A stretch of 28,462 nucleotides of DNA, from positions 1-28,462 of IMG/VR virus record IMGVR_UViG_3300025759_000514; one strand, given 5' to 3'. Every line of letters starts with the position of its first letter. The stretch's first letter is position 1. Below the pieces are notes generated by a model. That model saw only the letters and a list, made by a program, of their open reading frames with translations. It was not told the DNA's origin and searched no databases. Positions 10,808-28,397 of the stretch are shown one piece after another. The translations under genes and the position numbers were made by a program. The DNA comes from a virus.

Positions 10808-12289
10808 TTACCCTTTAAGTAGCATAAAGTTATTAGCGCCTTGAGTAATTAAGCACCTTTCAGATAGGTAGTTAATTGTCATAGCGTCAAGATCAGATGT
10901 AGCAGCTCCTACAGAACCAGTAACCCAAGTCTTGAAACGACGGTTATCAGTTTGAGAAGCTCTGTAACGTACGTGTAAGAACGGACGCTTAAGGTTTCTA
11001 CCTAACATTTGATCGTATACTGAAGACACTCCTGCTGGAATGAAACATCCGCGAATTGCATTAGTAGGATCTTTCTCGTTGATAGCTCCTCTAGTTCCAC
11101 GGTCGTTCAAGTACTTCATGTCTGACTTGTAGAAGTCGTATGACCCACGGCGGAATCCAGAGAATCCTAGGTTAAGAGCCATATCTTCGTCATTATCAAA
11201 CACTCCGTAAGAACTTCCACCTGAACCGTAAGAGTTCATTGATGCAAGCATATCATCTACCGCTAGAGAAACGCTTCTGTTGCAGAATAGCATGTTCTCC
11301 TCAATAGCGCCTTGCTTATCAAACTCAGCTAGAATTAAATCGAATTCAGCTAAGTCAGTAGCAGCGTTAACGCCGTCGATACCAGTAGACACGTTACCAC
11401 GAGAAGTGATAGCAGCCCATAGACCTTCGTGACCAGAGTTAGTACCAAGAGAATCAGCTACAGAGCTAGCAGCTCCTGCGTCAATAACGTGAGAGTTAGT
11501 TGAATCAGGAAGAACAGACTCAAGCATAGCCATTTCTAAGTAATCTGTGAAACGCATACGAGTTTCACCTTCTGCCTTAAGGTACCATAGGTAACCTCCA
11601 GTTCCATCTTCTCCAGAAACTTCTACCCAACCAATCTGAGCTGTGTCAGATCCGTTAACCGTGTACTTATCCTTAAGGATAATAGGCTTTTGAGTAAACG
11701 TCTTGTGCGCTGGAGAGTTTGAAGAAGCTGGTCCATCAGTACCTTTTCCGTATTCAGAACCAACAACTAGAACTGTACAAGTTGTACCAGTACCAGTTTC
11801 AGTAGCAATAGAAGTGTGATCATCCCAGTTTTCGTATCCGTAAGGAGTTGCTGTGATATCATCGCCGTCTACGTACTGTACGTGACACATTAAAGTATTA
11901 GTAACACCTGAATCATCGATCGCAACTAGAACCTGATCGTTAACACGGATAGGTTGGTTAGCTGCTGGATCACCAGTTCCATCAATATCATTATTGATAT
12001 GAATAACCGAACTTTGGGTGTTAATAGTACCTGTAAAACATAGGTGCAAACGACCCTGCTCAGACCAAATAACTTGGTCAGACATCATTGCCTCTTCTGC
12101 GCCTACTTGCGAAAGGAATCCTGCGATTGTTCTGTTACCGAACACCTCAGCTTCCTTTTCCATAACTTCCGGTAGGTATTGTTTAGCCCAACCGTCGTTT
12201 GCTGTTGTAAAATCTAGGTAGTTTTGAGCTGTAGCTACTTTGTTTGGTAAAGCTACGCTGTTTAAACTACCTCCTGCTGTAATAGACAT
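10808..12289 (-). CDS. Major capsid protein (493 aa)
   Basis: Identified from position (terminase, portal, acidic scaffold, then this gene), length, and a pattern I recall from marine phage capsid proteins: an N-terminal helix with NDGWAKQYLPEVMEKEAEVF, a TRMRFTDYLEMAML helix near residue 240, and a C-terminal NYLSERCLITQGANNFML. A beta-rich region between about residues 85 and 235 could be an insertion or decoration domain on an HK97-type core. Arginine codons here are mostly CGT/CGC, whereas the portal mostly uses AGA, fitting a very highly expressed protein. It starts 19 bases after the scaffold stop in an A/T-rich gap without a Shine-Dalgarno site. A strong terminator follows. The HK97 fold is inferred from tailed-phage biology. 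Confidence 0.85.
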   Translation of the reverse strand: MSITAGGSLNSVALPNKVATAQNYLDFTTANDGWAKQYLPEVMEKEAEVFGNRTIAGFLSQVGAEEAMMSDQVIWSEQGRLHLCFTGTINTQSSVIHINNDIDGTGDPAANQPIRVNDQVLVAIDDSGVTNTLMCHVQYVDGDDITATPYGYENWDDHTSIATETGTGTTCTVLVVGSEYGKGTDGPASSNSPAHKTFTQKPIILKDKYTVNGSDTAQIGWVEVSGEDGTGGYLWYLKAEGETRMRFTDYLEMAMLESVLPDSTNSHVIDAGAASSVADSLGTNSGHEGLWAAITSRGNVSTGIDGVNAATDLAEFDLILAEFDKQGAIEENMLFCNRSVSLAVDDMLASMNSYGSGGSSYGVFDNDEDMALNLGFSGFRRGSYDFYKSDMKYLNDRGTRGAINEKDPTNAIRGCFIPAGVSSVYDQMLGRNLKRPFLHVRYRASQTDNRRFKTWVTGSVGAATSDLDAMTINYLSERCLITQGANNFMLLKG

Positions 12290-12308: not shown

Positions 12309-13508
12309 TTATTTTTTTCTTTTAATTTTGAACTTTAAAGAATCAGAATCATCACCTAGAACTCTAAACTTTAACCCGCTAGTTTGAGCCTCGTTATGAG
12401 TTGATCTTGCTGACGTGTTAATGTTTTTTGCTTTTGCCATACTTTCTTTAATAGCATCCGCTTTTCCTTGTTCATAAAAATGCTGAGCTACGACATCCGG
12501 ATTCATGGCTGTAAACAAACCTTTATGGTAACCTTTAGCATCACTCATGTTTTGATTTTCATCAAGAAACTTTCCGATGAAATTATTCATATCACTTTGT
12601 GATTCCTTTACCCTATCCGCGTCTTTAACGTTAAATCTATATTTTTTATCTCCGACGTTATATTCAAAACCTTTGAACTTGTCATTAAAAACCTGATCGG
12701 TTTTTTGTTTAAAAATAGATTTACCTTTTTCAGCTATCTTACGAGTCTGCTCTGACTCTTTATTGTATCTGTTGAAAAAATCAATTGCCTTCTGTTGATC
12801 TTCTGTCAACTTACTTCCAGCTTTAATTTCTTCGTAATATTTAGACTTTTGCCCGTCTAAGTAGGCTTTAGCCTCTGCAACTTGCTCTTTTCTGGCTAAC
12901 TTCTTTCTTTTAATATCTCTCTCGCCATCTACGTCTTCATCATAAGAGAATTTATCTTCTAATAAAAACTCTACTTCTTCAGTAGATAAATGAGGTTTAG
13001 TAACTTTATAGTATTCTCTAAGAGCGTCTTGATCATCAATATCCTCGACATTCCTATTTAACCTAACGTAATCTTCGAGATCTCCTCCAGTATCAGCCAT
13101 AAAGTCAATAAGCTTTTGAACGTTTTCTGGAAGTGGCTCGCCAGAAGCTTTGGCTTCATCTATAGCTTCGCTAACCTCTTCTTTAAACTCTTCAACTTCT
13201 TCCTCTGTTACTTCCTCTAGTACTGGTACTTCTCCTTGTACTTCTCCTTGCGGTTGTACTTCTTCTTGTTCTTGTGTGGGCTCGGGACTTTCATCGACTC
13301 CAGCCACTCCTGAGTCGTCAGGGTTACTTTCTTTAGTTTCATTGGTTGGTGGTTTGCTTAAATCAACTTTAATAACATCTGGGTCATCTTTGCTGTCAAA
13401 TTTTTCTAAATCAAGTTCAGGCGTTTGTTCTACAGCCTCTTCTTGTGGTGTTTCGTTTTCGACCTCTTGGATCACCTCCTCAAGATCTGTTTGATTATTT
13501 TGTTCCAT
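12309..13508 (-). CDS. Probable capsid scaffolding protein (399 aa)
   Basis: It sits directly between portal and major capsid, the usual place of a scaffold. Residues 1-130 are extremely Glu/Asp-rich and low complexity. The middle (about 190-300) is charged and probably coiled coil, with runs of Lys/Glu/Gln. The C-terminus is basic (LKFKIKRKK), as in scaffolds that dock to the capsid protein by a positive tail. No protease motif is visible, so any head protease must lie elsewhere. The Glu-rich stretch creates a Ser-rich antisense shadow frame on the plus strand that is not a gene. Confidence 0.7.
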   Translation of the reverse strand: MEQNNQTDLEEVIQEVENETPQEEAVEQTPELDLEKFDSKDDPDVIKVDLSKPPTNETKESNPDDSGVAGVDESPEPTQEQEEVQPQGEVQGEVPVLEEVTEEEVEEFKEEVSEAIDEAKASGEPLPENVQKLIDFMADTGGDLEDYVRLNRNVEDIDDQDALREYYKVTKPHLSTEEVEFLLEDKFSYDEDVDGERDIKRKKLARKEQVAEAKAYLDGQKSKYYEEIKAGSKLTEDQQKAIDFFNRYNKESEQTRKIAEKGKSIFKQKTDQVFNDKFKGFEYNVGDKKYRFNVKDADRVKESQSDMNNFIGKFLDENQNMSDAKGYHKGLFTAMNPDVVAQHFYEQGKADAIKESMAKAKNINTSARSTHNEAQTSGLKFRVLGDDSDSLKFKIKRKK

Positions 13509-13525: not shown

Positions 13526-15901
13526 TTAATTACCTATTTGTGGGGTAAACTTATCTAAACCCATTCCGCCTCCTAATACATCATTACCTGAAGATTCAAA
13601 TCTTTTAGCAGTTGCTTTCGCTTTTTCTCGCTTATCTTTACCCTGCTCCTTCATTGTCTCCATTCTTTCGTTGGAAGCTCGCTCTTGTTCTCTTATCTGA
13701 TTGTTAAGTTGGAACTCGTAAGCCATTAACTCTTTCTTTAGTTTAACTTCCTCTTGAAGATGAGCTATCTTGTTTTGAGACTTAAGAGTTTCTATTTGGA
13801 TGTCCGCTTGAGTTTTTGCCTGATTTTTTTGTATCTCAGCTTGAGCAGCGGCTTGTTGAGTTTGCGCATTTGCTTGTGCTTGCGCTTGCATGTTCTGCTC
13901 TTGAATTTTCTGATCACGCTCTTGTTTTTTCTTACGCTTTACTTTTAATAGTTGATTTGCTAACTTAATGTTTCTTATTTCACGTATATCTATAGCATCG
14001 TCTAAATCTATTAACTGTTGTGCAAGAGCTGTTTGTATGTTGTTTTCTAATAGCTGTTTATCTTCTTCGTCAGGTTCAAGCTCAATAAATATACCGAAAT
14101 CATACAAGTATAGCTCCGCCATATCTTTTAATGTAGCTACGTTGTGAGCACCTATAGCTTGCACAAATGCATCGGCCGTTGGCGAGTATTCTAGTATATC
14201 AGATATTCTAAGAGATAAAGCTTCAGCCGCCTCGGTAGTTAAGAACATTGATCCTAGTAATATATGGCGCGTTGCAACATTAGAGTTTGCTGCTGCTAAT
14301 TTTTGAACGCCAACTAAAGACCTTTCATCTGGCATACTACCGTCTCTAGCCTCATTTAAACCCGTTACATCACGGATCATTTGTAAGTAATAATTGTAAT
14401 TACCAATTAAAGCTTGTAGCTTAGCTCCAGCCCCTTGACCGTTGGATATCTGTTGAATAGGTATTTTACCAGGGTTTGGATCGCCGTCTTGTGTAAACGA
14501 TCTACCAATTACACTACCAGTTTGGAAGAACATATTAAGTGCCTCCTGTGGATTATAGTTTGTGCCGTTACCTAAATCTACTTCAGCAAGTCCGTCAGCA
14601 TCAAGGTATACTCCATCCGGTACCATGCGCGACATCACTTGCTGCAGCTTTAAGTGTGTAAGCTGAATCATATCAGCAAACCCCGTAATTCTACTAACTA
14701 AAGATTCTATTTTACCATTGTACATCCTTGGTGCAACTAAAGAGTAGTTCATTTTAACTTTGTTAAAATCACTCTTTGCTCGCATCATGTTTTCAGCCTT
14801 GTTCCACTTTAGTAATTTATCTGTACCTAAAACGACAGCGCCCTCAAAAACACATTCTACGGCTCTTTGTACTTTAGAGTAGTTACCTACTACTTGAGCA
14901 GGAGGGTTAAATGAGTCGCTTTTTTCTATAGCTTTATAACCTCCGGTAGTAGTTTCTTTAATTTTATAAACCTCGTTCATGTGTGTTCTATAGTTAAAGT
15001 ATAGAACTTGAACTTTGTTTTTATCAGACTCATGTATACGCCTAGCCCCTATATATCTATTGCTTGAGCTTTCGTGTATCTCTTCTAAATCTAGTTCAGT
15101 TAAGTGATCAAACTCTCTAGCCAACTCATTAATAGGTATTGTTTTTACTTCACCAATATAGTATATATCTTCAAAATAAGGTGAATCAGTATAAGAGTAA
15201 ACAATGTTAGCTGGATCTACGTATTCTACTTTTGCGCCATCACTCCAGTTAAAAGTTGTTTTTATACAACCAATACCAAGAACAGTAAGATCATATAAAA
15301 ACCTCTGTCTAATGTTATTATAGTTGCTACCTTCAAGCAACACATTTATAGCCTGTTCTTCAGCTAACTCTACAGCTTGCTTATAATTGAGCTGCATGTG
15401 TAATGCTAGTTCTTCTTCGGTGTCTGGTAGTTGTTCTTTATCGTTTTTATATAAATCGATTTGAAACATCTCTTGTGCCTGATCGTTGAACTCTCTAGAC
15501 TTCATGTCAAATAAAAGAGAATCCATGTACTCAGTACGCTTACTTACACCGTATTGATCTTGTGAATAAGCTTTAATAGTAAACATTCTATTAGCCATAC
15601 CGTTAACTACGATATCCACAAATTTAGGTATAATTGGTACTGGCTTCCAATCTAAATTAAGATAAGATAAATCACCGTTAATAGATAACTCATCTTTATA
15701 TTTTTGAATAGATTGTTCCCCTCTAGCATACAGTCTTAATCTATGGAAACTATTTTTAGTATCCATATATCTATTAGAGTTGGCGTCTGTGAACCACTCT
15801 TGTTCAATTGCTTTCGCTACCTTAAGCCCATACTCAGGCGTCATCTTTTCTAGGTCAGGTACTGCTTGAGAAGGAAAGTTAACGTGTACGTTTTCCGCCA
15901 T
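13526..15901 (-). CDS. Portal protein (791 aa)
   Basis: The length, and the place directly after the large terminase, indicate the portal ring protein through which DNA enters the head. The N-terminal third has RLRLYARGEQSIQKYK and PIIPKFVDIVVNGMANRMF, resembling portals of the large Bacteroidota-phage (crAss-like) type as I recall them. The middle is mixed alpha/beta with RDVTGLNEARDGSMPDE near residue 510. From about residue 660 to 775 it becomes a Gln/Ala/Lys/Glu-rich coiled coil, a long tail seen in this portal type that may project into the head or barrel. It starts 2 bases after the terminase stop. The function is secure; the closer family link is inference. Confidence 0.85.
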   Translation of the reverse strand: MAENVHVNFPSQAVPDLEKMTPEYGLKVAKAIEQEWFTDANSNRYMDTKNSFHRLRLYARGEQSIQKYKDELSINGDLSYLNLDWKPVPIIPKFVDIVVNGMANRMFTIKAYSQDQYGVSKRTEYMDSLLFDMKSREFNDQAQEMFQIDLYKNDKEQLPDTEEELALHMQLNYKQAVELAEEQAINVLLEGSNYNNIRQRFLYDLTVLGIGCIKTTFNWSDGAKVEYVDPANIVYSYTDSPYFEDIYYIGEVKTIPINELAREFDHLTELDLEEIHESSSNRYIGARRIHESDKNKVQVLYFNYRTHMNEVYKIKETTTGGYKAIEKSDSFNPPAQVVGNYSKVQRAVECVFEGAVVLGTDKLLKWNKAENMMRAKSDFNKVKMNYSLVAPRMYNGKIESLVSRITGFADMIQLTHLKLQQVMSRMVPDGVYLDADGLAEVDLGNGTNYNPQEALNMFFQTGSVIGRSFTQDGDPNPGKIPIQQISNGQGAGAKLQALIGNYNYYLQMIRDVTGLNEARDGSMPDERSLVGVQKLAAANSNVATRHILLGSMFLTTEAAEALSLRISDILEYSPTADAFVQAIGAHNVATLKDMAELYLYDFGIFIELEPDEEDKQLLENNIQTALAQQLIDLDDAIDIREIRNIKLANQLLKVKRKKKQERDQKIQEQNMQAQAQANAQTQQAAAQAEIQKNQAKTQADIQIETLKSQNKIAHLQEEVKLKKELMAYEFQLNNQIREQERASNERMETMKEQGKDKREKAKATAKRFESSGNDVLGGGMGLDKFTPQIGN

Positions 15902-15903
15902 AT

Positions 15904-18120
15904 CTATTTAATTATTTGAGACATAAATCCCTCATTGTCATATTTTGCTATATTCAAATTCAAAGGTGTTTTTTGAGTCTTAGCGTTTGGTGCGTATAAA
16001 TGTCTATTGCAAGCCATGATGGCTAAGCCAGAACTTATAGACGCATCAAACTTTGTTCTTTTGTTTATATCAAACCTGCTCCAATCCAGTAATGTATCAT
16101 TAAAATACATCGTGCCAAAATCACCGTCCCCTAAATGTCCTACATAGTTCTGTATGTACATTTCAATAGCGGCTGCGTGAGCCTGTTTAATATCTTCACT
16201 TGAGTTTGGTATACCTCCAACCTCTCGTTCGGCTACAGATAACTTTCTCAAAGTTTTGTCTGGTCTGTTCATACTGTATCCTCTATAGCCTCTGCGGCGT
16301 AGATAGTATAGTAGTCTAGGTTTATTGTTCTCTGCGAGTAGCGGCATACCGTAAAACACTAGTGCCATTAAAACATCTTCAAAGAACATCTCTGCGGTTT
16401 GTGGTCTAGCTATATACTCTAAGAAAAAAGTGCTTGATGGCGCTTCTTCTAAAGAAAACTTTGTTAGTCCGTGTAATGCACCTTTCGAACCACGACCGTC
16501 AACAGTACCACTAATGTCGTAACTATCACAGCCAAAGGCTCCGATATGCTCATTTGCAGGGTATCTAACTCCATTTTTTACAATCTGTTTATTTTGTAAA
16601 TGACCTGGAGGAACCCAGCTCACTTTAAATCTACCTGATGGATCAGGGTGGAAAACAACTTGTGTGTCTCTTACCCCGTTTACCCAACCAAAACTACCAG
16701 TAGTAACATGAGCGCTATGTCTGCTAGCTTCGTTAAAATCTATTTGCTCGTATATTTTAATTAAATTAAATATACTGTTTTTAGTCTCATCTCTAAACGC
16801 ATGCTCTTCAGTTCTAGGAAATTGACGATAAAACTCATTTAACGCGTCTTGATCATCTTTTAAACCTTCCGCTTCGTTTTCCCAACTTGTTATTACACCT
16901 ACGTCTATTAATTCACCGTCTGGTCCATATCGTACATCATCACCTGGATTATCAAAGACTGGAAGTCCGTACTCGTCAATAAATCCTTCATAGTTCCATT
17001 CCATTGGGATAAAGAGAGAATAAAGGCCAGACTTCGTTTGTCCATTAGCATTTCGTCTTGATACGTCAGAATCATTGTACAGTTTTTTAAAGTTATCCCC
17101 ACCTTTATCAAGCGCGTTGCTGGTACTACCCATCATGCACTTACCGACGATTCTACTACCTAACCTTAGACAGGTCTTAGTAACTCGCCAGTTGTTTAAT
17201 ATGTTATCAGGTCTCTCCCACTTACCACTCTCATCATGTACTAGCAAATTTAGCTTTTCACCATCATAGCTATTATCACCCGTGTTCTTCCAGTCAATTG
17301 TAGTATCAAGACCCGCTATCTCCTCGAGCTGTTCGTTTACTTGTATTTTTTTACGAGTAAATTTACTAGCTGGAACTCTATACGCAAGTTCGGATTTTGG
17401 ACGATCCATACCATCTTGTATAGGTTTAAAGAAGAATGGGTAATTTATTGATATAGGTACTACTTTATCAGTAAACATCTTCTTTGCATCGGCACCAGAC
17501 TTAGAAAGGATCCCATATCTACTATCACTTGATATAGTGGCTAAGTTAACTGTTTCAGCTGATGACATAAACGAGAAACCTGAACGACGGTTTTTAAGGT
17601 AGCACATCCCATAGCATCTCTTGTCAGCTTTACAGGCTTCCCAAAATATAAAGAATAGTCTGTTCGCCTCTCTAAAGTCTGGAGCTCCAACGTCAATCTT
17701 ACTCCATTGTAGGTACATATAGTGTGTACCCGTTATGTATGTTGGCACTCCGTTATTAGTGAACCAGAACCCTTCTTCTCTACGTCTAAATTCTTCGTCA
17801 ATATAGTCGTGCCAGTTTTCTTTCTGCTCGTCTGGATAGTTTCTCCAGTCGAATATATTTTTAATACGAGATAGCTCTTTAGGATACTCTTGTTTAACCC
17901 ACTTATTTTTCTCGTGTTTAAATACGTTTTTTGGTGCTTTGGGCAAAGCTATCTTTAATCCTTGTATTTCGTATATATCACCTATAACCCCGTTATTTGC
18001 AAGAACTACTAAGTCGTGCTCTTTGTTATAACCGTACTTCCACTTCTTACCTCTATTTAATCTAGTAAGAGTTGTTTTCTTTATAGGTTCTATTATCTTA
18101 TATAAAGTCTGCTCGTACAT
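15904..18120 (-). CDS. terL: Terminase large subunit (738 aa)
   Basis: This is the DNA-packaging motor, ATPase plus nuclease. A Walker A-like element, KNRRSGFS, lies at residues 176-183 in the Arg-rich degenerate form seen in some phage terminases. Walker B is LLVHDES at 292-298 with the catalytic Glu. A likely coupling motif, GSTSN, lies at 331-335, followed by GGDNF. The RNase H-like nuclease domain begins near residue 525, with acidic residues in GAFGCDSYDISG (Asp532) and LLAENN (Glu597), and a third candidate near TKFDASISS. It is longer than common T4-type terminases because of an N-terminal region of about 110 residues. The start overlaps the small-subunit stop as TAATG, indicating translational coupling. 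Confidence 0.9.
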   Translation of the reverse strand: MYEQTLYKIIEPIKKTTLTRLNRGKKWKYGYNKEHDLVVLANNGVIGDIYEIQGLKIALPKAPKNVFKHEKNKWVKQEYPKELSRIKNIFDWRNYPDEQKENWHDYIDEEFRRREEGFWFTNNGVPTYITGTHYMYLQWSKIDVGAPDFREANRLFFIFWEACKADKRCYGMCYLKNRRSGFSFMSSAETVNLATISSDSRYGILSKSGADAKKMFTDKVVPISINYPFFFKPIQDGMDRPKSELAYRVPASKFTRKKIQVNEQLEEIAGLDTTIDWKNTGDNSYDGEKLNLLVHDESGKWERPDNILNNWRVTKTCLRLGSRIVGKCMMGSTSNALDKGGDNFKKLYNDSDVSRRNANGQTKSGLYSLFIPMEWNYEGFIDEYGLPVFDNPGDDVRYGPDGELIDVGVITSWENEAEGLKDDQDALNEFYRQFPRTEEHAFRDETKNSIFNLIKIYEQIDFNEASRHSAHVTTGSFGWVNGVRDTQVVFHPDPSGRFKVSWVPPGHLQNKQIVKNGVRYPANEHIGAFGCDSYDISGTVDGRGSKGALHGLTKFSLEEAPSSTFFLEYIARPQTAEMFFEDVLMALVFYGMPLLAENNKPRLLYYLRRRGYRGYSMNRPDKTLRKLSVAEREVGGIPNSSEDIKQAHAAAIEMYIQNYVGHLGDGDFGTMYFNDTLLDWSRFDINKRTKFDASISSGLAIMACNRHLYAPNAKTQKTPLNLNIAKYDNEGFMSQIIK

Positions 18121-20226: not shown

Positions 20227-20619
20227 TTATTTTTTTACTTTTTCTAGTGATCTACCACCGAAGTATGCACCGATCACTGTTATTAATACTAATTGAAGAA
20301 GGTCCACGTAAGAATCCTTCACGTTAAAATTGATTGCACCAGCATCAATGAATATCAATAGCATCGTGCATACTATTAAGAATATAAGAACCATAGGCCT
20401 TACGTTCTTTGAAAGCCATGAGTCAGATTTTGCATCCGCCTCCCATCGAGATGTAATATTCTTTTCCATCTCAACTTCGTAGTTGGCTACTAATTCTTTT
20501 ATCTTTTGTTCTGCTTCAAGCTTTTCTTCTTTAGAAGTAGTGAGGTTATCTAATACACCACCTACACCTTTAACCAGTTCAGTAGCTCCAGCGGAAAATA
20601 AATTAGTTAAAAAGTTCAT
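20227..20619 (-). CDS. GTA_holin_3TM-type holin (130 aa)
   Basis: The start chosen is the ATG at 20619, which overlaps the upstream stop as TAATG; a TTG two codons earlier is less likely. The N-terminal FSAGATELVKGVGGVLDNL could be an amphipathic helix. A charged helix follows, then the hallmark RWEADAKSDSWLSKNVRP. Two strongly hydrophobic segments (about 73-96 and 103-121, ending AYFGGRSLEK) complete the pattern of the 3-TM holin family known from gene transfer agents. Holins permeabilise the inner membrane at lysis time. A second small membrane protein lies two genes upstream, so this is probably a lysis cluster, although no endolysin is visible here. Confidence 0.8.
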   Translation of the reverse strand: MNFLTNLFSAGATELVKGVGGVLDNLTTSKEEKLEAEQKIKELVANYEVEMEKNITSRWEADAKSDSWLSKNVRPMVLIFLIVCTMLLIFIDAGAINFNVKDSYVDLLQLVLITVIGAYFGGRSLEKVKK

Positions 20620-20849
20620 TACCAAGATGTGTTAAGTGTATTCGCAAACTCCTCGAAACTGTATATAGTTTTACCTGATAAAAATGTAGGTGTCTTACAA
20701 CCAGAGCATGTAGAAAATGATCCAAACGCTTTAGATCTGTCTGCGTTATATATAAGATCATCCGCAGAGTTTTCGTGCATCTTATTATACATTATAGAGC
20801 TAATCTCGTTAGCTTCAAATAACACCCAGTTTCTATCAATAAAATCCAT
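20619..20849 (-). CDS. Unknown small protein between two membrane proteins (76 aa)
   Basis: This soluble-looking protein has a single CSGCK (CxxC) element in its second half and an acidic, Asn-rich first half (DFIDRNWVLFEANEISSIM). There is no membrane segment. It overlaps both neighbours by the TAATG stop-start arrangement, so it should be made in step with the two membrane proteins that flank it. A lysis-timing or accessory role is possible on context alone. I do not recognise a named family. Confidence 0.6.
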   Translation of the reverse strand: MDFIDRNWVLFEANEISSIMYNKMHENSADDLIYNADRSKAFGSFSTCSGCKTPTFLSGKTIYSFEEFANTLNTSW

Positions 20850-21062: not shown

Positions 21063-21209
21063 CTATAATAATTCTAACTTTGATTTATCAACCTCGCCAG
21101 CTGGCGCAGGTTTTTTTGGCGCTTTAGCATCAACGTGCTTGTGCCCACTAGCTGTAACCGCGTGTTTAAACGGTGATTTTTTACAAAATCTTTTTGCGAA
21201 TTTAGACAT
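21063..21209 (-). CDS. Short basic protein (48 aa)
   Basis: The ATG at 21209 opens a short frame ending in TAG at 21063-21065. The product starts MSKFAKRFCKKSPFKHAV and is rich in Lys, Ala and Pro (KAPKKPAPAGEVDK). It overlaps the end of the HEXXH gene by 8 bases. The KSPFKH element loosely recalls the P-x-H-[KR] element after the MAFK tag of neighbouring genes. A longer overlapping frame (21074-21271) is rejected because it would run across two better genes. The function is unknown; it could be a small nucleic-acid-binding or internal head protein. Confidence 0.55.
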   Translation of the reverse strand: MSKFAKRFCKKSPFKHAVTASGHKHVDAKAPKKPAPAGEVDKSKLELL

Positions 21210-21576
21210 ATTTTTCTGCGTTCATAGCTCGTTGCTCCCAAGGAAATACTTCGCTTCCCTCTTCGTGCCACTCGCCGTTATACTTTATCTTACCGTCTTT
21301 TCTAGGGTAAGTCTTACCGTCTGATCTAACCCAGTCTTTTCCATAAGCTATTCTGCCCTCAGCCATTTCTTTACAATGAACAGCCTCATGAGCTACGGCT
21401 TCTTTGTATAATCTACTGTCTTTAGGTACGTCTTTGTCTATTACCATTTCGTTGCCATTAACAGCCTCTGCTACAGTGCCTTCTTCAAGATCTTTGTGCT
21501 TAATGTTAAGTTTCTTATTTAGTTGACCGTTGTGAGCAATGCCAGGTAAAGGTTTACGACCGAGTTTAAAAGCCAT
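21202..21576 (-). CDS. MAFK-tagged putative zinc metalloprotease (124 aa)
   Basis: The protein begins MAFKLGRKPLPGIAHNG, a variant of the shared MAFK tag. A HEAVH motif (residues 63-67) matches the zinc-protease HEXXH signature inside a helix-like context (YKEAVAHEAVHCKEM). Downstream, SEVFPWEQRAMNAEK provides Glu114 as a plausible third zinc ligand in a minimal gluzincin arrangement. No signal peptide or membrane segment is visible. If the tag marks virion proteins, this could be a head-maturation or entry protease. The scaffold and capsid genes nearby show no protease. Its start overlaps the upstream stop as TAATG. The activity is inferred from the motif. Confidence 0.6.
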   Translation of the reverse strand: MAFKLGRKPLPGIAHNGQLNKKLNIKHKDLEEGTVAEAVNGNEMVIDKDVPKDSRLYKEAVAHEAVHCKEMAEGRIAYGKDWVRSDGKTYPRKDGKIKYNGEWHEEGSEVFPWEQRAMNAEKYV

Positions 21577-21746
21577 TACTTTACGACTGTTTTCTCTTTT
21601 GAAGAACCTCCTTTTTCAATAGTCATACTCCATCCTTCGTTTTCTTTGGACTTATGCTTAACTTTTTTATAAGGTTCTTCATTCATACCTGATTTACCAA
21701 CGTTTTTAAAAGCCTTGTGGTAAGGCCCTTTCATTTTAAAAGCCAT
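21576..21746 (-). CDS. MAFK-tagged small basic protein (56 aa)
   Basis: This frame is short but well supported: the ATG at 21746 starts MAFKMKGPYHKAFKN, the same tag as in the array upstream, and the stop (21576-21578) overlaps the next ATG as TAATG. The rest is Lys/Glu/Ser-rich (KVKHKSKENEGW, EKGGSSKEK) and probably disordered. It starts 1 base after the winged-helix gene. The function is unknown. It is a compact member of the tagged family. Confidence 0.65.
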   Translation of the reverse strand: MAFKMKGPYHKAFKNVGKSGMNEEPYKKVKHKSKENEGWSMTIEKGGSSKEKTVVK

Positions 21747-21747
21747 G

Positions 21748-22188
21748 TTATCTGTCTTTATCTCGTATCATATCGTCTATAGCTTTGTTATAGACTTTAT
21801 CTGTATACGATTTATTGTTGTAAAAAATACTACGTTCAGAAGTTGGCATATCTTCTTCGCCTAGTAATATGCGATATATTCGTGTTACTAGCTGTGAGCA
21901 TTTAAACGACGTTTTAAATACAGAGTATTTAATACTCGTTCTATTTCTATGTCGCCAAACTTCTATCCAGCCAGCTGATCGAAGTTTCTCCCACCTTTTC
22001 TTATCCCAAGAATATGTGTAAGCACCCTCGATAAATTCGTTGCGGGTAAATCTACCCTTGTGATCTAGATATATAAGTAACTCTAGATCAGCATCAGTTA
22101 ATCCATAAGTCTTACAGGCCCACTTACGCGTGAGCCTGTAATACTTAAGGATATTCATATCACGCAAATCTTGCGCTGTCAGTCTCAT
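21748..22188 (-). CDS. Winged-helix (MarR-like) protein (146 aa)
   Basis: The N-terminal 100 residues read as a winged-helix domain: YYRLTRKWACKTYGLTDADLELLIYL (residues about 16-41, quoted in part), then an Asn/Glu-containing helix (TRNEFIEGAYTYSWDKKRW) and a basic wing (WRHRNRTSIKYSVF). This is a MarR-type layout. I recall close relatives in late operons of marine phages. The C-terminus (SYTDKVYNKAIDDMIRDK) is helical and could be an oligomer contact. It may regulate late genes or be a DNA-binding packaging factor. It follows a structural-type gene by 1 base. DNA binding is inferred from fold resemblance. Confidence 0.65.
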   Translation of the reverse strand: MRLTAQDLRDMNILKYYRLTRKWACKTYGLTDADLELLIYLDHKGRFTRNEFIEGAYTYSWDKKRWEKLRSAGWIEVWRHRNRTSIKYSVFKTSFKCSQLVTRIYRILLGEEDMPTSERSIFYNNKSYTDKVYNKAIDDMIRDKDR

Positions 22189-22189
22189 C

Positions 22190-22576
22190 TTACGTGTTCC
22201 AGAAGTATCCAGACATAGCTTCGATACTAATTCCAGTCACAAAGTTTAAACCTGGTGTTTTAACGTTATTGTCAAAATCAAGTACATCTACCACAACTGA
22301 GTGTGGGCCAGCAGAAGCTGCTTTAGTTAATACCTCAGCAATTTCTCTAACTCTATGACCTGACGCGCCACTTTCTACAGCGTGCGTATCGTCGTGAGTA
22401 AAAACGACTCTTGTAGTGTTAGGTGCGTAACCGTTGTCAGTTCTAAAAATTGCCTCTGTAGTAGTAGCGCTTACTGGCATTACACCTATAAGTTCACTTC
22501 CATCTACTGAGCATGCGTCTATCGTTCTTCCTGTAGCGTCAATTCCAGCGCCGCTTGCAAATAATAATCTTGCCAT
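22190..22576 (-). CDS. Putative virion-associated protein (128 aa)
   Basis: The protein starts MARLLFASGAGIDATGRT and has alternating beta strands with one helix (VREIAEVLTKAASAG), followed by SVVVDVLDFDNNVK. The layout resembles part of the 305-aa neighbour (KEVVKAMDSIVYANASQGK then ITVYDAEAGTVK), hinting at a shared fold. No catalytic motif, signal peptide or membrane segment is seen. It is flanked by structural-type genes, so a minor capsid or decoration role is plausible. I do not recognise a named family. Confidence 0.5.
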   Translation of the reverse strand: MARLLFASGAGIDATGRTIDACSVDGSELIGVMPVSATTTEAIFRTDNGYAPNTTRVVFTHDDTHAVESGASGHRVREIAEVLTKAASAGPHSVVVDVLDFDNNVKTPGLNFVTGISIEAMSGYFWNT

Positions 22577-22603
22577 AATTTCTTTATTTTTTAAATGTTA
22601 TTA

Positions 22604-23521
22604 TTATACCCAGTATACTCTTACGACATACTTACCCGCCGTAAACGTGTTAGCGCCACTGTGAGTCGCACCTGCGGCTAGATAAAGAGGTTTGTTTAAA
22701 ACCGTATCGTTTACATTGTCTTCTTGAACTAAAGTCTTACCTTTTGTCCAAGTTCCACTGTTAATTAGTTGATCACCACCACCGCCATCAACAGCGCCGT
22801 CATACTCAATGTCAGCAGAAGAGTTAGCGTAAAGATCAATATCCGTCAAGTTGTTAGATCCAGATGTTGGAACAACAAGGCAAGTCATTTCCACTTTATA
22901 TGGAACTACAGCCGCGGCTTGCGGTTTACCTACTGAGAAAAAAGCTCTACCACCAGCAGCGAGTCCAATCGCATCACCAGCGTCATTAGCACTACCAAGA
23001 CCCGTTATATCAATAAACGTTTCTGTTATGTAACCAGAACCATGTCGCCAAGTGTAGTTTAGCGGAGTTGGTTGAGTAGCGCTAGTGCCTACTACACCGG
23101 CTCCGTAGTTTCCAAAATCACTAGCAGTAGTGCTCACCTTGTTTTCAATAGGACCTACAGCCCTACAACTAAACCCAGCAACGCTTGTCACAAGACCTTG
23201 TAGGGCTTTGTTGATTCTAGCTTCTTTAACTGTACCAGCCTCAGCATCATACACAGTGATCATCTTTCCTTGAGACGCGTTAGCGTACACGATCGAATCC
23301 ATAGCCTTAACAACCTCTTTATTCTTACCGGTGTTAGTGCCCATGATTAAACTGTACTGATAACCGCCAGCCTCTGCTTTTACAAGGACTGAAGTAGCAG
23401 TTCTAGGGAAAGTGCCAATGTATGCGCTTGCAGGAAAACAAATAGCTTCTGGCTCACCATCAATGTGGCCACCAGTCTCTACGTCTGATTCCGCAAAATA
23501 CAAAAAATTTCCGTTTGTCAT
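22604..23521 (-). CDS. Putative structural / head-fibre-like protein (305 aa)
   Basis: The N-terminal domain (residues 1-125) holds CFPASAYIGTFPRTATSVLV and a helix with KEVVKAMDSIVYANASQGK. The C-terminal two thirds are Gly/Ala/Ser/Thr/Asp-rich beta structure ending in FTAGKYVVRVYWV, a kind of strand ending I associate with phage surface proteins. No signal peptide or membrane segment is seen. It starts after a 98-base regulatory-looking gap behind groES. Its size, composition and place suggest a capsid decoration or head-fibre protein. This is context-based inference. Confidence 0.5.
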   Translation of the reverse strand: MTNGNFLYFAESDVETGGHIDGEPEAICFPASAYIGTFPRTATSVLVKAEAGGYQYSLIMGTNTGKNKEVVKAMDSIVYANASQGKMITVYDAEAGTVKEARINKALQGLVTSVAGFSCRAVGPIENKVSTTASDFGNYGAGVVGTSATQPTPLNYTWRHGSGYITETFIDITGLGSANDAGDAIGLAAGGRAFFSVGKPQAAAVVPYKVEMTCLVVPTSGSNNLTDIDLYANSSADIEYDGAVDGGGGDQLINSGTWTKGKTLVQEDNVNDTVLNKPLYLAAGATHSGANTFTAGKYVVRVYWV

Positions 23522-23619
23522 TTTTAAATTTTTATTTATTAATTGTTTAAGATTTACCGTTTAGGGTTTGTGATTTAAGGTTTAGGTCTAATATATATAT
23601 CACACGTTTAGCGAAGTAG
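23522..23619 (-). promoter_or_regulatory. Intergenic region with 21-bp-spaced repeats and TA tract
   Basis: This is the largest gap inside the operon apart from the leader. On the plus strand, GATTTAnnGTTTAGG occurs at 23551-23565 and 23572-23586, spaced by exactly 21 bases (two helical turns). A further GTTTAG lies at 23606, and an ATATATATAT tract at 23591-23600. A promoter or operator for the downstream structural genes is plausible. No consensus promoter can be proven by eye and there is no terminator hairpin. Confidence 0.4.
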
Positions 23620-23877
23620 TTACTCCACTAACACAACATCTCTTGCTCGGATCACATGGTACATTGTATCTGCCCAGGTTATACCATGCCCAGCGTGTTT
23701 GTCGTAATATATAACATCGTTATCTTTTAAGCCTTCAACTAAGTTTCCTGTAGATATAATTGTAGCCTTAACATATCTATTGTCTTGATCTAGATCTTCA
23801 GTGAGAATAAGACCTCCAATCTTTTTAGGCCCTGCTTTCTGCTTATCTACCACTATATAATCATTGATTGCTCTCAT
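23620..23877 (-). CDS. groES: Phage co-chaperonin GroES (85 aa)
   Basis: This is a clear Cpn10 protein. MRAINDYIVVDKQKAG forms the first strand, GGLILTE (residues 21-27) is the mobile loop with the hydrophobic LIL triplet that docks GroEL, and the closing strand is YHVIRARDVVLVE. At 85 residues it is shorter than E. coli GroES (97). The missing part is the roof hairpin, replaced by a short NLVEGLKDND turn, similar in spirit to T4 gp31, which enlarges the folding chamber. It overlaps the end of groEL by 17 bases, the reverse of the usual groES-groEL order. It should cap the phage GroEL for folding of virion proteins. Confidence 0.9.
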   Translation of the reverse strand: MRAINDYIVVDKQKAGPKKIGGLILTEDLDQDNRYVKATIISTGNLVEGLKDNDVIYYDKHAGHGITWADTMYHVIRARDVVLVE

Positions 23878-25432
23878 CTGCTCTAGCGTTTGAAATTACA
23901 CAATCAGCTGATATAATAGTTGATACTACTGATACAGCATTTTTCAGCGCCGATTTTGTTACCAAAACCGGATCTACTATTCCTACGTCTAGCATATCTG
24001 TACATTTACCAGATATAACATCAATACCGCAATAGTCTTTACCATCACACTTAGCATTAGTAAGACCTGCGTTATCTAGGATAGTCAGCATTGGAGACTT
24101 AATAGCCTCAAGGAGAATCTCCTCACCCACGTTAGTGGGTTTAATTTTTTTAGAAGCCCACCATAACGCCGAACCTCCACCAGGAATAATACCTTCTCGC
24201 AGCGCGGCCTTTGTAGCATATATAGCGTCTTCGACTCTATCTTTCTTTTCCTTAAGCTCTACTTTTGAAGCAGCACCTACTTTAACAATACCTACTGAAC
24301 CTGAAAGAGTCGCTAGACGTTGTTCTAGCTTTTTCTTAATAAAACCGTTTTTCTCTTCAGCGATTTTGTTATTAACCTCTTTAATCCTATTTTCTATATC
24401 CTCAGTTACACCATCTAATGTTATAACTGTATTAGTATCGCTAGTAACGGCGTATTCTACTTCTCCTAAATGATCTACACTAATAAGATCTAGATCATCA
24501 CCTAGTTCTTCGTTAATAATAGTAGCGCCTGTTAATATAGCTAAATCTTCTGTAGCATCTTTTCTAGTAGGTCCAAAGCCAGGTAGGTCAATAATATTAA
24601 CTTTGATATTGCCTTTAACCTTGTTCATCATCAACGCGGCTTTCACTTGCTGATCTACTGGAGCTATGATAAGTAAAGCTCGTCCAGTCTTGATGACATG
24701 CTCTAACACGTTTTGTATTTTGCGTACGTTAGGTATTAAACTAGATACTACTAATACGTAGGGATTATCTAGTTCTGCTAAATGCTTATCAGTGTTAGTG
24801 ACAAAGTGCGGAGACGTAAGCCCGCAATCAACCTGCACTCCGTCAACTAACTCCACATGCGTGTCTTCGGTGTCACCTTCCTCCATAAGTACGACACCAT
24901 GCTTACCTACTTTTTCGTAAGCCTCTGCAATAACGCTTCCAAGGGCTTTATCATTATTGCAACTAATCGCGCTAACAGCGCTAAGCATGCTCCCTTCAAC
25001 TTCAATAGCCCTGTCTTCAAGATGTTTAACAACTTTCTCCAAGCCTGAACTAATACCTGCTTTGATTTCTCTAATAGATTCATCAGCATATTTTTCTTTG
25101 TTTACCTCTTTAAGTAGTGCTTCAGCAAGGACGGTAGCCGTAGTGGTACCGTCGCCTGCTTCTTTCACTGTATTGTTAGCTGCTTCTTTAATAAGGGTAG
25201 CACCTATGTTTTCAACCGGATCATATAAGACTACGCTTTGGGCAACGGTTACTCCGTCTTTTGTGATCACCGGTCGGCCGCGAGCATCCTCGTATATTAC
25301 GCATTTACCCGATGCGCCTAATGTGCTCTTTACGGCTTGTGCTAGCTTATGTACGCCAGCTATTACTTTTTCTTTAGCGGTTTGACCAAAGTCTAAACGT
25401 TTGATCAACTCACTAGGTAAGTTGTATTCCAT
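23861..25432 (-). CDS. groEL: Phage chaperonin GroEL (523 aa)
   Basis: A full-length group I chaperonin. ATP-site elements are present: ITKDG at 56-60, GDGTTTATVLA at 93-103, and RVEDA with the catalytic Asp at 402; GIIPGGG follows at 414-420. The apical domain is complete (LLIIAPVDQQVKAALMMNKV, LPGFGPTRKDATEDLAIL). Oddities: the usual LGPKG after the first helix is LGASG, the first 12 residues are an atypical extension, and the protein ends without the Gly-Gly-Met tail. It is therefore a divergent but probably active ring chaperonin. It follows the MAFK-tagged array and is translated just before groES. Phage-encoded GroEL is uncommon; its likely client is the capsid, tail or giant protein. 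Confidence 0.95.
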   Translation of the reverse strand: MEYNLPSELIKRLDFGQTAKEKVIAGVHKLAQAVKSTLGASGKCVIYEDARGRPVITKDGVTVAQSVVLYDPVENIGATLIKEAANNTVKEAGDGTTTATVLAEALLKEVNKEKYADESIREIKAGISSGLEKVVKHLEDRAIEVEGSMLSAVSAISCNNDKALGSVIAEAYEKVGKHGVVLMEEGDTEDTHVELVDGVQVDCGLTSPHFVTNTDKHLAELDNPYVLVVSSLIPNVRKIQNVLEHVIKTGRALLIIAPVDQQVKAALMMNKVKGNIKVNIIDLPGFGPTRKDATEDLAILTGATIINEELGDDLDLISVDHLGEVEYAVTSDTNTVITLDGVTEDIENRIKEVNNKIAEEKNGFIKKKLEQRLATLSGSVGIVKVGAASKVELKEKKDRVEDAIYATKAALREGIIPGGGSALWWASKKIKPTNVGEEILLEAIKSPMLTILDNAGLTNAKCDGKDYCGIDVISGKCTDMLDVGIVDPVLVTKSALKNAVSVVSTIISADCVISNARADESNQ

Positions 25433-25433
25433 G

Positions 25434-25463
25434 AATTATAGTAAATTAAATTAAATTATAGTA
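25434..25463 (-). promoter_or_regulatory. Possible groEL promoter: tandem TACTATAATT
   Basis: In the 37-base gap before groEL the minus strand carries TACTATAATT twice, spaced by exactly 20 bases, each containing the -10-like TATAAT. The upstream copy would start RNA a short distance before the ATG. No matching -35 box is visible, and the gap is so A/T-rich that chance is a real alternative. Confidence 0.3.
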
Positions 25464-25469
25464 GTTAGC

Positions 25470-25754
25470 TTATGCGCTAGCTTTAGTCTTTTTTTTACGC
25501 AAGTCGTGAGTTGCGTCGTCGTCAGCAGCCTTAGCGTCTAATGTTAGCATACCACCGCCTCCAACGTTAACTGTCACCATGTCGCCTGCTTGAATTTCAG
25601 CGATACCTGCAGCGCCGCCTTTAACTTTACGCGGGCCTTCATTCGTATTTACCCATAAGGTTCCACCATCAGATCCTACGCGATCAACTTCTACGCGCAT
25701 AGTTTTAGGGTCTTCTTTATCAAAGGCTGAGTAGCCTGTCATTTTAAATGCCAT
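25470..25754 (-). CDS. MAFK-tagged small beta-rich protein (94 aa)
   Basis: The start, MAFKMTGYSAFDKED, is a variant of the shared N-terminal tag. The middle looks like a small beta barrel (TMRVEVDRVGSDGGTLWVNT, then AEIQAGDMVTVNVGGGGMLTL). The C-terminus is charged and Lys-rich (DLRKKKTKASA). No membrane segment is seen. It is the last gene before groEL and starts 1 base after its tagged neighbour. The function is unknown. Confidence 0.6.
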   Translation of the reverse strand: MAFKMTGYSAFDKEDPKTMRVEVDRVGSDGGTLWVNTNEGPRKVKGGAAGIAEIQAGDMVTVNVGGGGMLTLDAKAADDDATHDLRKKKTKASA

Positions 25755-25755
25755 A

Positions 25756-26025
25756 TTAGTTTGTTGGATTTTTGTAGTAGAGTCTTCCTCTACCAGGATA
25801 AGTTATATATTTACCGTTCTTGTCTGAACTAGGCTTAAGTGGCATCTCCCCTTCGTCTAAGCTCTGACTTTTCACAGCTTTACCGTCTGTGGTATACAAA
25901 ACTTCAGGAAAACTAGGGTTTTGAGAGCCAGGGGCGCTAGTCGGTATGTTTTCTATTTTACGCTCTTCAGCCTCAACGCCACCTACACCTGACTGTTTTG
26001 GGAAGCCTTTCATTTTAAATGCCAT
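25756..26025 (-). CDS. MAFK-tagged small protein (89 aa)
   Basis: It begins MAFKMKGFPKQSGVGG, then becomes a Pro/Ser/Glu-rich, apparently unstructured chain containing DEGEMPLKP and a basic ending with YPGRGRLYYKN. A GEMP element is shared with the tagged 242-aa protein of this array. No fold or catalytic motif is visible. The flexible character suits an internal or decoration protein of the head. It starts 2 bases after the previous tagged gene. Confidence 0.6.
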   Translation of the reverse strand: MAFKMKGFPKQSGVGGVEAEERKIENIPTSAPGSQNPSFPEVLYTTDGKAVKSQSLDEGEMPLKPSSDKNGKYITYPGRGRLYYKNPTN

Positions 26026-26027
26026 GA

Positions 26028-26321
26028 TTACTTGTTTTTTCTCTTTCTTTTTTTCTTTTTGTCAGTACTTACAGTATCAGCTACAGTAGATCCGCCCGTC
26101 TTAAGACTTTTATCAGCGCCAATGGTTGTATCAGTCTCTTGCTGTAGACTAATTGCTGCTTGCCAGTTCTTACCACTTCCCCCTGTACCGTCTCCCTCTG
26201 GATCAAACGCAGCGGTAGCGTCTATTTTCTCCATCTCTTCCATATCTTCGCCACGCTTTTTTGTTGCGCTGCCAACACCGAAGTTACGGTGCATAGGGCT
26301 GCCTTTCATTTTAAATGCCAT
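26028..26321 (-). CDS. MAFK-tagged small protein (97 aa)
   Basis: The start, MAFKMKGSPMHRNFGVGS, is the fullest version of the tag, including the P-x-H-[KR]-x-F element. The middle is acidic and Gly-rich (AAFDPEGDGTGGSGKNW). The end is strongly basic (DKKKKRKRKNK), suggesting contact with DNA or with an acidic partner such as the scaffold. It lacks predicted strands or membrane segments. The function is unknown. Confidence 0.6.
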   Translation of the reverse strand: MAFKMKGSPMHRNFGVGSATKKRGEDMEEMEKIDATAAFDPEGDGTGGSGKNWQAAISLQQETDTTIGADKSLKTGGSTVADTVSTDKKKKRKRKNK

Positions 26322-26331
26322 ATTTCTTATA

Positions 26332-26622
26332 TTAAAAAGTTTTTACTACTTTCGGCCCTTTTGTAGCCTCTAATTTTTTAGAAAAGTAGTCGATACTGCC
26401 GTCAATCGCGGATTCTGCACCTTCCATGGTCTCTCTACGGGTTACAGAGTGCCAATTATCGTCAATTGCAGGGTGAGAAACCTCTGTTTGGTAGTATCCG
26501 TTAGGTAATTGGGTAATTCGCCAGTTAGATTTGTCAGACATGTGCGTCCATTGCTCAATTTCTTGTTTACTTGGCTTCATTGTGTGCGTCGAAGTCGACG
26601 TCTTGTAGTATAAATAGGTCAT
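26332..26622 (-). CDS. Conserved small phage protein (96 aa or 82 aa)
   Basis: The core reads MKPSKQEIEQWTHMSDKSNW, then PNGYYQTEVSHP, TRRETMEGAESAIDGSI and a helix ending. I recall this pattern from marine phage contigs, without a known function. Two starts are possible: the ATG at 26622 or the ATG at 26580. The shorter form begins at the remembered family start and leaves a small hairpin (26587-26600) untranslated in front of it. The spacing to the upstream gene favours neither strongly. It carries no MAFK tag although it sits inside the tagged array. Confidence 0.6.
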   Translation of the reverse strand: MTYLYYKTSTSTHTMKPSKQEIEQWTHMSDKSNWRITQLPNGYYQTEVSHPAIDDNWHSVTRRETMEGAESAIDGSIDYFSKKLEATKGPKVVKTF

Positions 26623-26645
26623 TATTTATGGTTTTATGTTTGGTA

Positions 26646-26660
26646 TAGGGATTTTCCCTA
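26646..26660 (-). terminator. Small hairpin after the 242-aa gene
   Basis: TAGGGA-TTT-TCCCTA on the plus strand gives a perfect 6-bp inverted repeat beginning 2 bases after the stop of the 242-aa gene. No uridine run follows on the minus strand, so it is more likely a pause or mRNA-protecting hairpin than a strong terminator. TAGGG arms also appear in the leader dyad near 28305. Confidence 0.35.
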
Positions 26661-26662
26661 CT

Positions 26663-27391
26663 TTATTTACAGTTTTTCATAGTATATCCACGTCCTTTTG
26701 TAGATTTACCGTATTTTTTAGCAAAAGCGGGGTCATCACCTGTTTCCGTTGTGCTTTGAGGCATCTCTCCTTCGTAACAGCCGTATGCGTCGCACCATTT
26801 TCCAACACCTTTGCCAATGTTTTTGATGAATTTCCCTACATCAGTGCCAATTTGCTTAGCCCCGTGTTTAATTCCTTTCCCTACCTGCTTAAGTTCGTAC
26901 TTAAGATTACCGCCAGTTTTACTTTCTTTTTCTTCTTCTTGTTTACCAGCGTATTCTTTGATGCTAGAGGTTGAGGGTTTCAATTCAAAATCTCTTTCTG
27001 GAGACGGTAGAGTCCCAACTCGTGGAGTTATAGGCTCTATTGTTTCACCACCCGCGTCCTCTAGCGGTATGAATTGAGAGGATCTTGCTATTTGCCTTTC
27101 GTCTGCAGCTTTTTTCTCCTCATCTGATAAACTAGCATAGTAAGCATCTCCCTCTGGTGTATGCGGGACTTCAGTCGTTTCTACACGACCTCCTTTTTGC
27201 GTCCAGCCAGATGCGTCACCTTGCTTCTCGAACCAGAAGTCACCACCTGTGTGTGCTCCACCCTCCTTGTTATAGTGAGGCGTATCTTCAGGAACGCCTT
27301 TTCCTAAGTTATGTCCGCCGTGCTTAAATGACGTTGAGAAATTTTTATGTATTGGGTTGCCTGAATTACCGGCTTTTAGTTTAAATGCCAT
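26663..27391 (-). CDS. MAFK-tagged protein with amphipathic helix (242 aa)
   Basis: The start, MAFKLKAGNSGNPIHKNFST, carries the tag plus the P-x-H-K-x-F element. Residues 20-80 are Gly/His-rich, 80-160 are charged and probably disordered. Residues about 165-199 form a Lys/Gly-rich segment with hydrophobics every 3-4 positions (QIGTDVGKFIKNIGKGVGKW), like a cationic amphipathic helix able to bind membranes. Two Cys follow (WCDAYGCYEGEMP). The tail is basic. It lacks enzyme motifs. An ejected or membrane-active virion protein is one reading; a DNA-binding internal protein is another. Confidence 0.6.
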   Translation of the reverse strand: MAFKLKAGNSGNPIHKNFSTSFKHGGHNLGKGVPEDTPHYNKEGGAHTGGDFWFEKQGDASGWTQKGGRVETTEVPHTPEGDAYYASLSDEEKKAADERQIARSSQFIPLEDAGGETIEPITPRVGTLPSPERDFELKPSTSSIKEYAGKQEEEKESKTGGNLKYELKQVGKGIKHGAKQIGTDVGKFIKNIGKGVGKWCDAYGCYEGEMPQSTTETGDDPAFAKKYGKSTKGRGYTMKNCK

Positions 27392-28340: not shown

Positions 28341-28397
28341 CCCATATATAGAGGTACCTCCAAAAAAGGACGTTGCGTATATATAACTAAAGTGTAG

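Follow-up and report, generated by a model that had tools for sequence, protein, structure and literature searches.

The stretch of DNA treated here, hereafter the window, is a viral record of 28,462 bases (IMGVR_UViG_3300025759_000514), of which the long open reading frames (ORFs) on the minus strand encode a terminase, a portal protein, a scaffold-like protein, a major capsid protein and other proteins of the virion. Six ORFs on the same strand begin with nearly the same short string, MAFK followed by M or L, and this N-terminal string, here called the tag, is the subject of this article. All six, reported in the initial annotation, are present with ATG starts: those from 27391 and 21576 read MAFKL, and those from 26321, 26025, 25754 and 21746 read MAFKM.

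Six tagged genes in the window

The tagged ORFs are as follows (aa, amino acids; tag, codons 1-7).

26663..27391, minus strand: tagged ORF 1, 242 aa, MAFKLKAGNSGNPIHKNF...; tag 27371-27391; no match in Pfam or PHROG
26028..26321, minus strand: tagged ORF 2, 97 aa, MAFKMKGSPMHRNFG..., with a K/R-rich end; tag 26301-26321; no match in Pfam or PHROG
25756..26025, minus strand: tagged ORF 3, 89 aa, MAFKMKGFPKQSG...; tag 26005-26025; no match in Pfam or PHROG
25470..25754, minus strand: tagged ORF 4, 94 aa, MAFKMTGYSAF...; tag 25734-25754; no match in Pfam or PHROG
21576..21746, minus strand: tagged ORF 5, 56 aa, MAFKMKGPYHKAF...; tag 21726-21746; no match in Pfam or PHROG
21202..21576, minus strand: tagged ORF 6, 124 aa, a small zinc-protease-like domain behind the tag region; tag 21556-21576

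Can such a repetition arise by chance? With residue frequencies based on 467 untagged genes in eight related contigs, and with positions treated as independent, the probability that a gene starts with MAFK[ML] is only 7.7e-5, and therefore six such starts among 30 ORFs (P about 1.3e-19 on the same assumption) are not a matter of chance. AFKM is also the most frequent string at residues 2-5 in the eight related contigs, where it is found in 3 to 8 genes each (in one of them, G003, it is level with ATTT, 3 genes each), and strings outside the tag family are never shared by more than three genes in any of these contigs. The gene lists behind these counts, and behind the start-context, body-composition and core counts given below, are greedy, uncurated ORF calls, G003 being used without its last 1.6 kb. 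The related contig G001 (54,765 bases), whose terminase is 100% identical to that of the window, carries the same six tagged proteins and a seventh one at position 43346, about 31 kb downstream of the terminase gene.

It had been claimed that the bodies behind the tag differ completely. This holds for the six of the window so far as family searches show, but not for the clade as a whole, in which homologous bodies exist too. An element P-x-H-[KR]-x-F had also been pointed out in three of the ORFs, and it is found there, as PIHKNF (ORF from 27391), PMHRNF (26321) and PYHKAF (21746); as an element, however, it is one local version of the pattern P-[MLYI]-x-[RKQH]-N-[FY], in which the H is not conserved. 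ORF 6 has HEAVH at 21376-21390 and a conserved glutamate, E114, at 21235-21237, and in library searches it gave a weak match to PHROGs without known function. Directly 3′ of it lies a further ORF on the minus strand (21063-21209, MSKFAKRFCKKSPFKH...), which may be a degenerate or further leader variant.

A protein motif of one phage clade

In which viruses is the tag found? Scanning of 2.9 million viral contigs with a DNA pattern for MAFKMKG followed by Pro-Met gave 70 matching stretches in 68 records. The terminase family of the window is encoded in 67 of the 68 (20 of the 20 long records and 47 of the 48 others), the sole record without it being a fragment of 7.1 kb, and in the 20 long records the terminase is 78-100% identical to that of the window where measured. 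A second set was chosen by the terminase and not by the tag; it consists of 80 loci with terminases 75-87% identical, and 45 of its 47 tagged ORFs are on the terminase strand and 2 on the other. Several of the records counted in this work are near-duplicates. The tag co-occurs, therefore, with one terminase clade. When the 24-aa tag region, the protease-like protein of the window and a second tagged protein were searched by tblastn against 50,697 phage records, no match was obtained; the same collection yielded no near-clade record, its nearest terminase being 63.7% identical (this search may omit records very near the window). Likewise, one pattern scan of genome contigs for the tag in prophages gave nothing. 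Among isolated phages, the closest relatives by terminase for which a host is known infect Flavobacteriaceae. Apart from the tag itself, there is a second family of starts (MAYKQKRSM, MAYTQKNNP and MAYKQKPPLFFKTS, to which MAYRQKKPTFFGSALKQ and MGYKQSPFPMQQ may be added), apparently a sister form of the tag, with examples located at L147:248-463, at L161:8478-9191 and in an ORF of L096 from about base 2017.

Collection of ORFs starting with M[AGPSTV][FY]K[MLI] gave 225 non-redundant tagged proteins, 60 of which match the DNA pattern used for fetching the loci. Single-linkage BLAST clustering of their bodies from residue 13 divides them into about 96 clusters, an approximate number, as links between short disordered proteins can be missed, K/M-rich repeats can create false ones and a few of the ORFs are perhaps spurious. 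The same short motif thus stands in front of many kinds of bodies, and is modular in this sense. Its conserved core is F-K-[ML]-K/G, with A at position 2 exchanged for G, P, S, T or V and F exchanged for Y. Since the first five residues were used for the collection, only positions from 6 onward are free of that choice: K or R is found at position 6 in 87 of the 96 cluster representatives and G at position 7 in 74, and the 165 proteins outside the fetching pattern have K (97), G (40) or R (11) at position 6 and G at position 7 in 78 cases.

What kinds of proteins are these bodies? Compared with untagged proteins of 60-350 aa from the same contigs, 50 tagged bodies are rich in lysine (median 0.155 vs 0.089) and basic (median isoelectric point 9.0 vs 5.5), with order-promoting residues scarcer (0.21 vs 0.32), so that by composition they tend to be poorly ordered. 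Behind the tag, the P-[MLYI]-x-[RKQH]-N-[FY] element, typically P-M-x-R-N-[FY]-like, occurs in 25 of the 96 clusters and an S-[PA]-x-K-[KQ]-like element in 28. Of the 96 cluster representatives, 92 were searched against Pfam and PHROGs together with two other tagged proteins, 94 in all (those omitted were two shorter than 55 aa and two on the other strand, which may be spurious); the outcome was two unrevealing Pfam matches, one protein each, and ten unnamed PHROGs. Some loci, for example L005 and L038, have two members of one cluster. A KVCLPxAKI...NPSKKCGEK-like body follows the tag in some records and other starts, for example MYDIKSKF...NSPLPCW, in others (L023:2435-2797 on the minus strand, L032:7763-8218, L168:750-1115, and ORFs of L117 and L103); to judge from its sequences, this is shuffling of N-termini.

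The protease-like family, to which ORF 6 belongs, offers a measure of how strictly the tag is kept. Its members were collected with a core profile lacking residues 1-27, the profile itself being built from tagged members. The terminase-chosen loci yielded 29 distinct members, 28 of them tagged and one starting with MFKLP, a shifted form; over all loci, many of which were fetched by the tag, 57 of 64 are tagged, and the seven other starts are MFKLP, MPRKCKGSFKMK (two), MSFKFK, MAFKR, MAFEL and MPNFQK. In the alignment of the 64, the F3 column has F in 61 and Y in 3, and the K4 column has K in 62. These two columns carry about 4.1 bits, compared with 4.3 for the catalytic residues and 0.85-2.7 for linker columns. 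The catalytic H, E and H and a later E are invariant in all 64, so that the family has the HExxH with downstream Glu expected of a zinc protease, the downstream E being the presumable metal ligand. AlphaFold2 placed residues 1-20 outside the folded domain with pLDDT below 50. The domain itself may be weakly likened to small zinc proteases of the SprT/IrrE type (minigluzincins): comparison of the predicted fold gave as best hit IrrE (3dte; VIA Z 5.5, 83 residues, 3.6 A), a weak score, and with Foldseek the best E value in PDB was 0.6, while a viral library gave a SprT-like phage protein (E 7e-5).

The gene of the protease-like protein is one gene away from a window ORF homologous to gp78 of phage phi38:1 (E 2e-15), which may be a helix-turn-helix protein. 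In phi38:1, small basic proteins near gp78 (gp80, and gp69 further off) are listed as structural, a label for which the record notes cite similarity to phi18:1 proteins. This lends indirect support to the view that virion proteins are encoded around the gp78 homologue. Between the window gene at 22190-22576 and phi38:1 gp77 no significant similarity was found.

Is the tag really a motif of the protein, or just a favorable beginning of the gene? The latter idea, raised in the initial annotation as an alternative, says that an A/T-rich beginning helps initiation of translation. It has some basis, as the region upstream of tagged genes is A-rich, a Shine-Dalgarno sequence is found in just 2 of the 225, A is commoner at -3 than in untagged genes (.86 vs.66) and somewhat commoner at -12/-13, Ala at codon 2 favors GCA, and Ala codon 2 and the Lys codons lean to A more in the tag than in the bodies. 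However, the A-rich upstream region and the preference for GCA at codon 2 (62 of 95 Ala) are common to untagged genes, nucleotides 4-21 are even slightly less A+T-rich in tagged than in untagged genes (0.68 vs 0.72; 50 and 437 genes), and the capsid and portal proteins of the window have no tag, nor do the 31 capsid starts looked at. MAFKMKG is written in 31 DNA spellings among its 108 carriers; the F of the tag uses TTT and TTC at.87 and.13, equal to the usage in the bodies; and third codon positions of the tag vary while the residues are kept. Moreover, the core is retained at a distance from the start codon, behind the extra residues of MSGPFKMKG, MGKFKMKG and MKKASGFKMKN and, in the protease-like family, in MPRKCKGSFKMKYN and MFKLPR, and in the homologous pair MAFKMRKPNPKG and MSKFKMRKPNPKG one inserted residue moves the motif by one. 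Because of the 31 spellings and of the motif being kept behind added residues, the tag, as far as its sequences tell, is a protein motif, F-K-[ML]-K/G. The effect on translation initiation was rejected on the same grounds of shifted tags and codon variety, and we regard it as extremely unlikely. The conservation among relatives is thus at the level of protein, as is evident also from the F3 and K4 columns.

It could also be imagined that new small genes are born when the beginning of an existing gene is copied, the tag being a leftover without function. The tagged genes indeed lie close together, and the loci with two members of one body cluster would fit such a history. Nevertheless, a functionless relic is hard to reconcile with F3 and K4 being nearly as conserved as catalytic residues next to a variable linker, with residues kept while third codon positions vary, or with a motif kept behind extra residues, and this explanation is very unlikely. 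Sequence and predicted structure together give the tag the pattern of a short linear motif that is functional and sits on a flexible arm.

Likeness to the tail of a scaffold-like protein and a proposed role in head assembly

To what, then, does the motif bind? A candidate answer comes from the head genes of the window.

15904..18120, minus strand: terminase large subunit, phrog_6681 (E 1e-172), the marker of the tag-bearing clade
13526..15901, minus strand: portal protein, phrog_6547 (E 4e-149)
12309..13508, minus strand: scaffold-like protein, 399 aa, its gene flanked by those of the portal and the major capsid protein; N-terminal part acidic, C-terminal tail basic, ...DSLKFKIKRKK
10808..12289, minus strand: major capsid protein, phrog_13704 (virion structural protein), the probable receptor of tag and scaffold tail

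The scaffold-like protein, with no PHROG or Pfam match, is so called from its position and composition, which suggest the role, and homologues of it are known. It has a tag-like core, FKIK, at 12321-12332, and its C-terminus is kept across the clade as ...FKFKIKNKK or close variants (FKFKIK/FKIK/FKIR-like). In 520 ORFs of eight long contigs, the core F[KR][MLIFV][KR] occurs per residue at.0061 in the first 16 residues, at.0014 in the last 18 and at.0001 elsewhere. Among the 520 proteins, nine carry the core within the last 18 residues, namely all eight scaffold-like proteins and one other (1/512); among 35 other K/R-rich C-termini of these contigs none has it. When 60 distinct scaffold-like proteins were taken, 54 had the core in the last 20 residues, compared with a mean of 2.75 and a maximum of 10 in 2000 shuffles. 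The scaffold tail therefore resembles the tag. As a separate observation, the protein at the scaffold position in Elemovirus (L076:22876-23895) starts with MFKMKLEG and ends with TGTKFKLV, and so has a tag-like string at its own N-terminus. As for the major capsid protein, its positional homologue in Calle_1 is annotated as such, no sequence match to solved structures was found, and the top PDB fold match of its model is a phage capsid protein, the model having a mean pLDDT of 54.6, a low confidence that is too weak for a docking-site search.

We propose, with a probability of roughly 0.6, that the tag is a scaffold-like docking motif by which small, mostly basic late proteins are loaded into the procapsid. 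The N-terminal short linear motif would copy the basic docking tail of the scaffold-like protein (F-K-F-K-I-K-x-K or close variants), and because the two resemble each other, cargo and scaffold would share a receptor while the shell is being built, the likeliest candidate being the inner face of the capsid protein. Beyond the tag, each cargo protein would then be free to vary. The cargo might finally be delivered into the host with the DNA, as the behavior of virion-stored proteins of crAss001, P22 and T7 suggests. The idea that a common tag on varied cargo is a sorting signal is thus well supported as far as a signal at the protein level is concerned, by the conserved motif and the core in the scaffold tail. 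The accompanying suggestion of cleavage afterwards is unsupported, as no head-maturation protease family was matched by name among the scanned proteins of the window and G001, a scan covering part of their genes; nor was a processing site identified, though no search was aimed at one.

The same data can be read as a genuine docking motif whose receptor is not the capsid, such as a phage GroEL, phage DNA, or a host component after infection. A GroEL gene (23861-25432) is indeed encoded between tagged genes of the window, followed by a GroES-like ORF (23620-23877), and the lysine-rich bodies with their high isoelectric point would suit nucleic-acid binding as well. Such a receptor leaves unexplained, however, why the core stands at the C-terminus of the scaffold-like protein in eight of eight contigs, and why the tag was found with one terminase clade although GroEL is also encoded by the untagged relatives MW202828 and Elemovirus; we consider a receptor other than the capsid unlikely. 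The GroES inside the array, on the minus strand, was identified by reading of the ORF, and another GroES-like co-chaperonin protein lies near the terminase (18340-18930, minus strand; phrog_13932, E 4e-17).

Several observations weigh against docking of the tag at a scaffold site of the capsid, and they should be put together here. The likeness between tag and scaffold tail is only four residues long and lies at opposite ends of the proteins; the residue classes of the core were broadened with the scaffold tails already in view, and the strict form FK[MLI]K matches just 40 of the 60 scaffold-like proteins. Tag and tail motif are not significantly associated over 25 loci (16, 4, 2 and 3; P=0.11), and the positional homologue of the scaffold-like protein is annotated as structural in Elemovirus and phi38:1. 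The tag is damaged or hard to recognize in three protease-like proteins (those with MAFEL, MAFKR and MPNFQK), and the lean to A in the Ala and Lys codons of the tag and at -3 also belongs to this list. In seven isolates whose terminases are more distant (Manatee Spring phage, Elemovirus, phi38:1, Panino, phi18:3, Gundel_1 and Calle_1, some with virion proteins listed in their records), the 42-49 kb examined per genome contain no tagged ORF. Finally, of 39 terminase-chosen loci with at least 3 kb upstream, 20 have the tagged protease-like protein only, 8 have it together with other tagged ORFs, 1 has others only and 10 have none, so that other cargoes are seen at 9 of 39; the ten loci without a tagged ORF mostly have other genes at that place, and some have variant starts such as MAYKQK and MGYNMRG. 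The widespread carrier of the tag is thus the protease-like protein; an array with many cargoes has been seen in part of the clade, and many of the loci break off within the region. With this recount, the case for a conserved tag on protease-like proteins became stronger and that for an array in the whole clade weaker, and the odds of capsid docking stayed as they were.

Among other genes, the window has a holin-like protein (20227-20625, minus strand; phrog_3427, E 9e-31; Pfam GTA_holin_3TM), and its right end, 28380-28462, is a G-rich low-complexity stretch, possibly an assembly edge. G001 has two giant ORFs on the late strand, outside or partly outside the window, at 32089-42033 (3,314 aa) and 20280-28727 (2,815 aa); in the larger one, residues 1-2,637 gave no PHROG match.

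Comparison with known systems and meaning

The choice of small internal proteins for packaging is, to our knowledge, known for few phages. The nearest parallel is the capsid-targeting sequence of T4, which is N-terminal, is carried by IPI-III and Alt, takes these internal proteins into the prohead, and is described in the text cited as a propeptide of 10-20 residues removed by proteolysis (PMC5694885). In both cases a short N-terminal sequence is common to unrelated small proteins, here 225 proteins of about 96 clusters, and entry into the prohead, known in T4, would be expected here. The two differ in that the T4 sequence is cleaved, whereas no such protease was found here among scanned proteins, and in that the tag here resembles a scaffold tail. 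The tag would act like a capsid-targeting sequence, with the likeness to a scaffold tail as a new feature.

A motif shared between scaffold and a second protein is known from phage 80alpha and SaPI1, in which scaffold and CpmB have a common C-terminal RIIK motif and bind the same capsid site (PMC5644958). Such sharing of a short motif of the scaffold terminus is found here too, with a protein that is probably the scaffold, and docking on the capsid, demonstrated there, would be its counterpart here. The tail motif of the present clade is FKFKIK/FKIK/FKIR-like and not RIIK; one satellite-encoded competitor alters capsid size in SaPI1, while here many phage-encoded proteins have an N-terminal motif of the type F-K-hydrophobic-K. 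In P22, the scaffold gp8 attaches by its C-terminal segment to the inner face of the coat, through contacts made by Arg and Lys, and loss of 11 C-terminal residues abolishes binding (PMC9965877). That coat-binding domain is a helix-loop-helix, unlike the scaffold-like tail here, which is about 10 residues long and known from its sequence alone. Cargo has been fused to the P22 scaffold as an engineered system; the link between cargo and scaffold would here be natural. In crAss001, the cargo proteins (gp45, gp46 and RNA polymerase-associated; 60-277 kDa) are stored in the virion and thought to exit before the DNA, according to the part of the description cited (PMC10172136). They resemble the proposed cargo in being stored in the virion, and differ in being large and in that no shared loading tag is mentioned in that part. 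The combination seen here, by comparison with these systems, would be of a scaffold-like motif, an N-terminal position and many phage proteins. A full-text literature search for MAFKMKG, with a coverage that misses most subscription journals, found no paper, and one for an N-terminal motif common to internal proteins gave nothing relevant among the titles listed.

How far could such a system reach? It is conceivable, though we lean somewhat against it, that the tag is an open cargo code, that is, any late gene gaining a start with F-K-[ML]-K/G would have its product packed beside the genome via the scaffold docking site and delivered to the next host. If so, the phages would have a fast-changing set of injected proteins, of which the about 96 body clusters are those found, and the zinc-protease-like protein would act either as an injected effector or as a type of procapsid protease not known from phages. 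If the docking of tagged proteins in the procapsid is true, a label of about five residues would become a predictive rule, by which the packaged and probably injected proteins can be listed for a clade without an isolate in the searched collection, and it would also provide a natural means, very short in sequence, of bringing proteins into shells.

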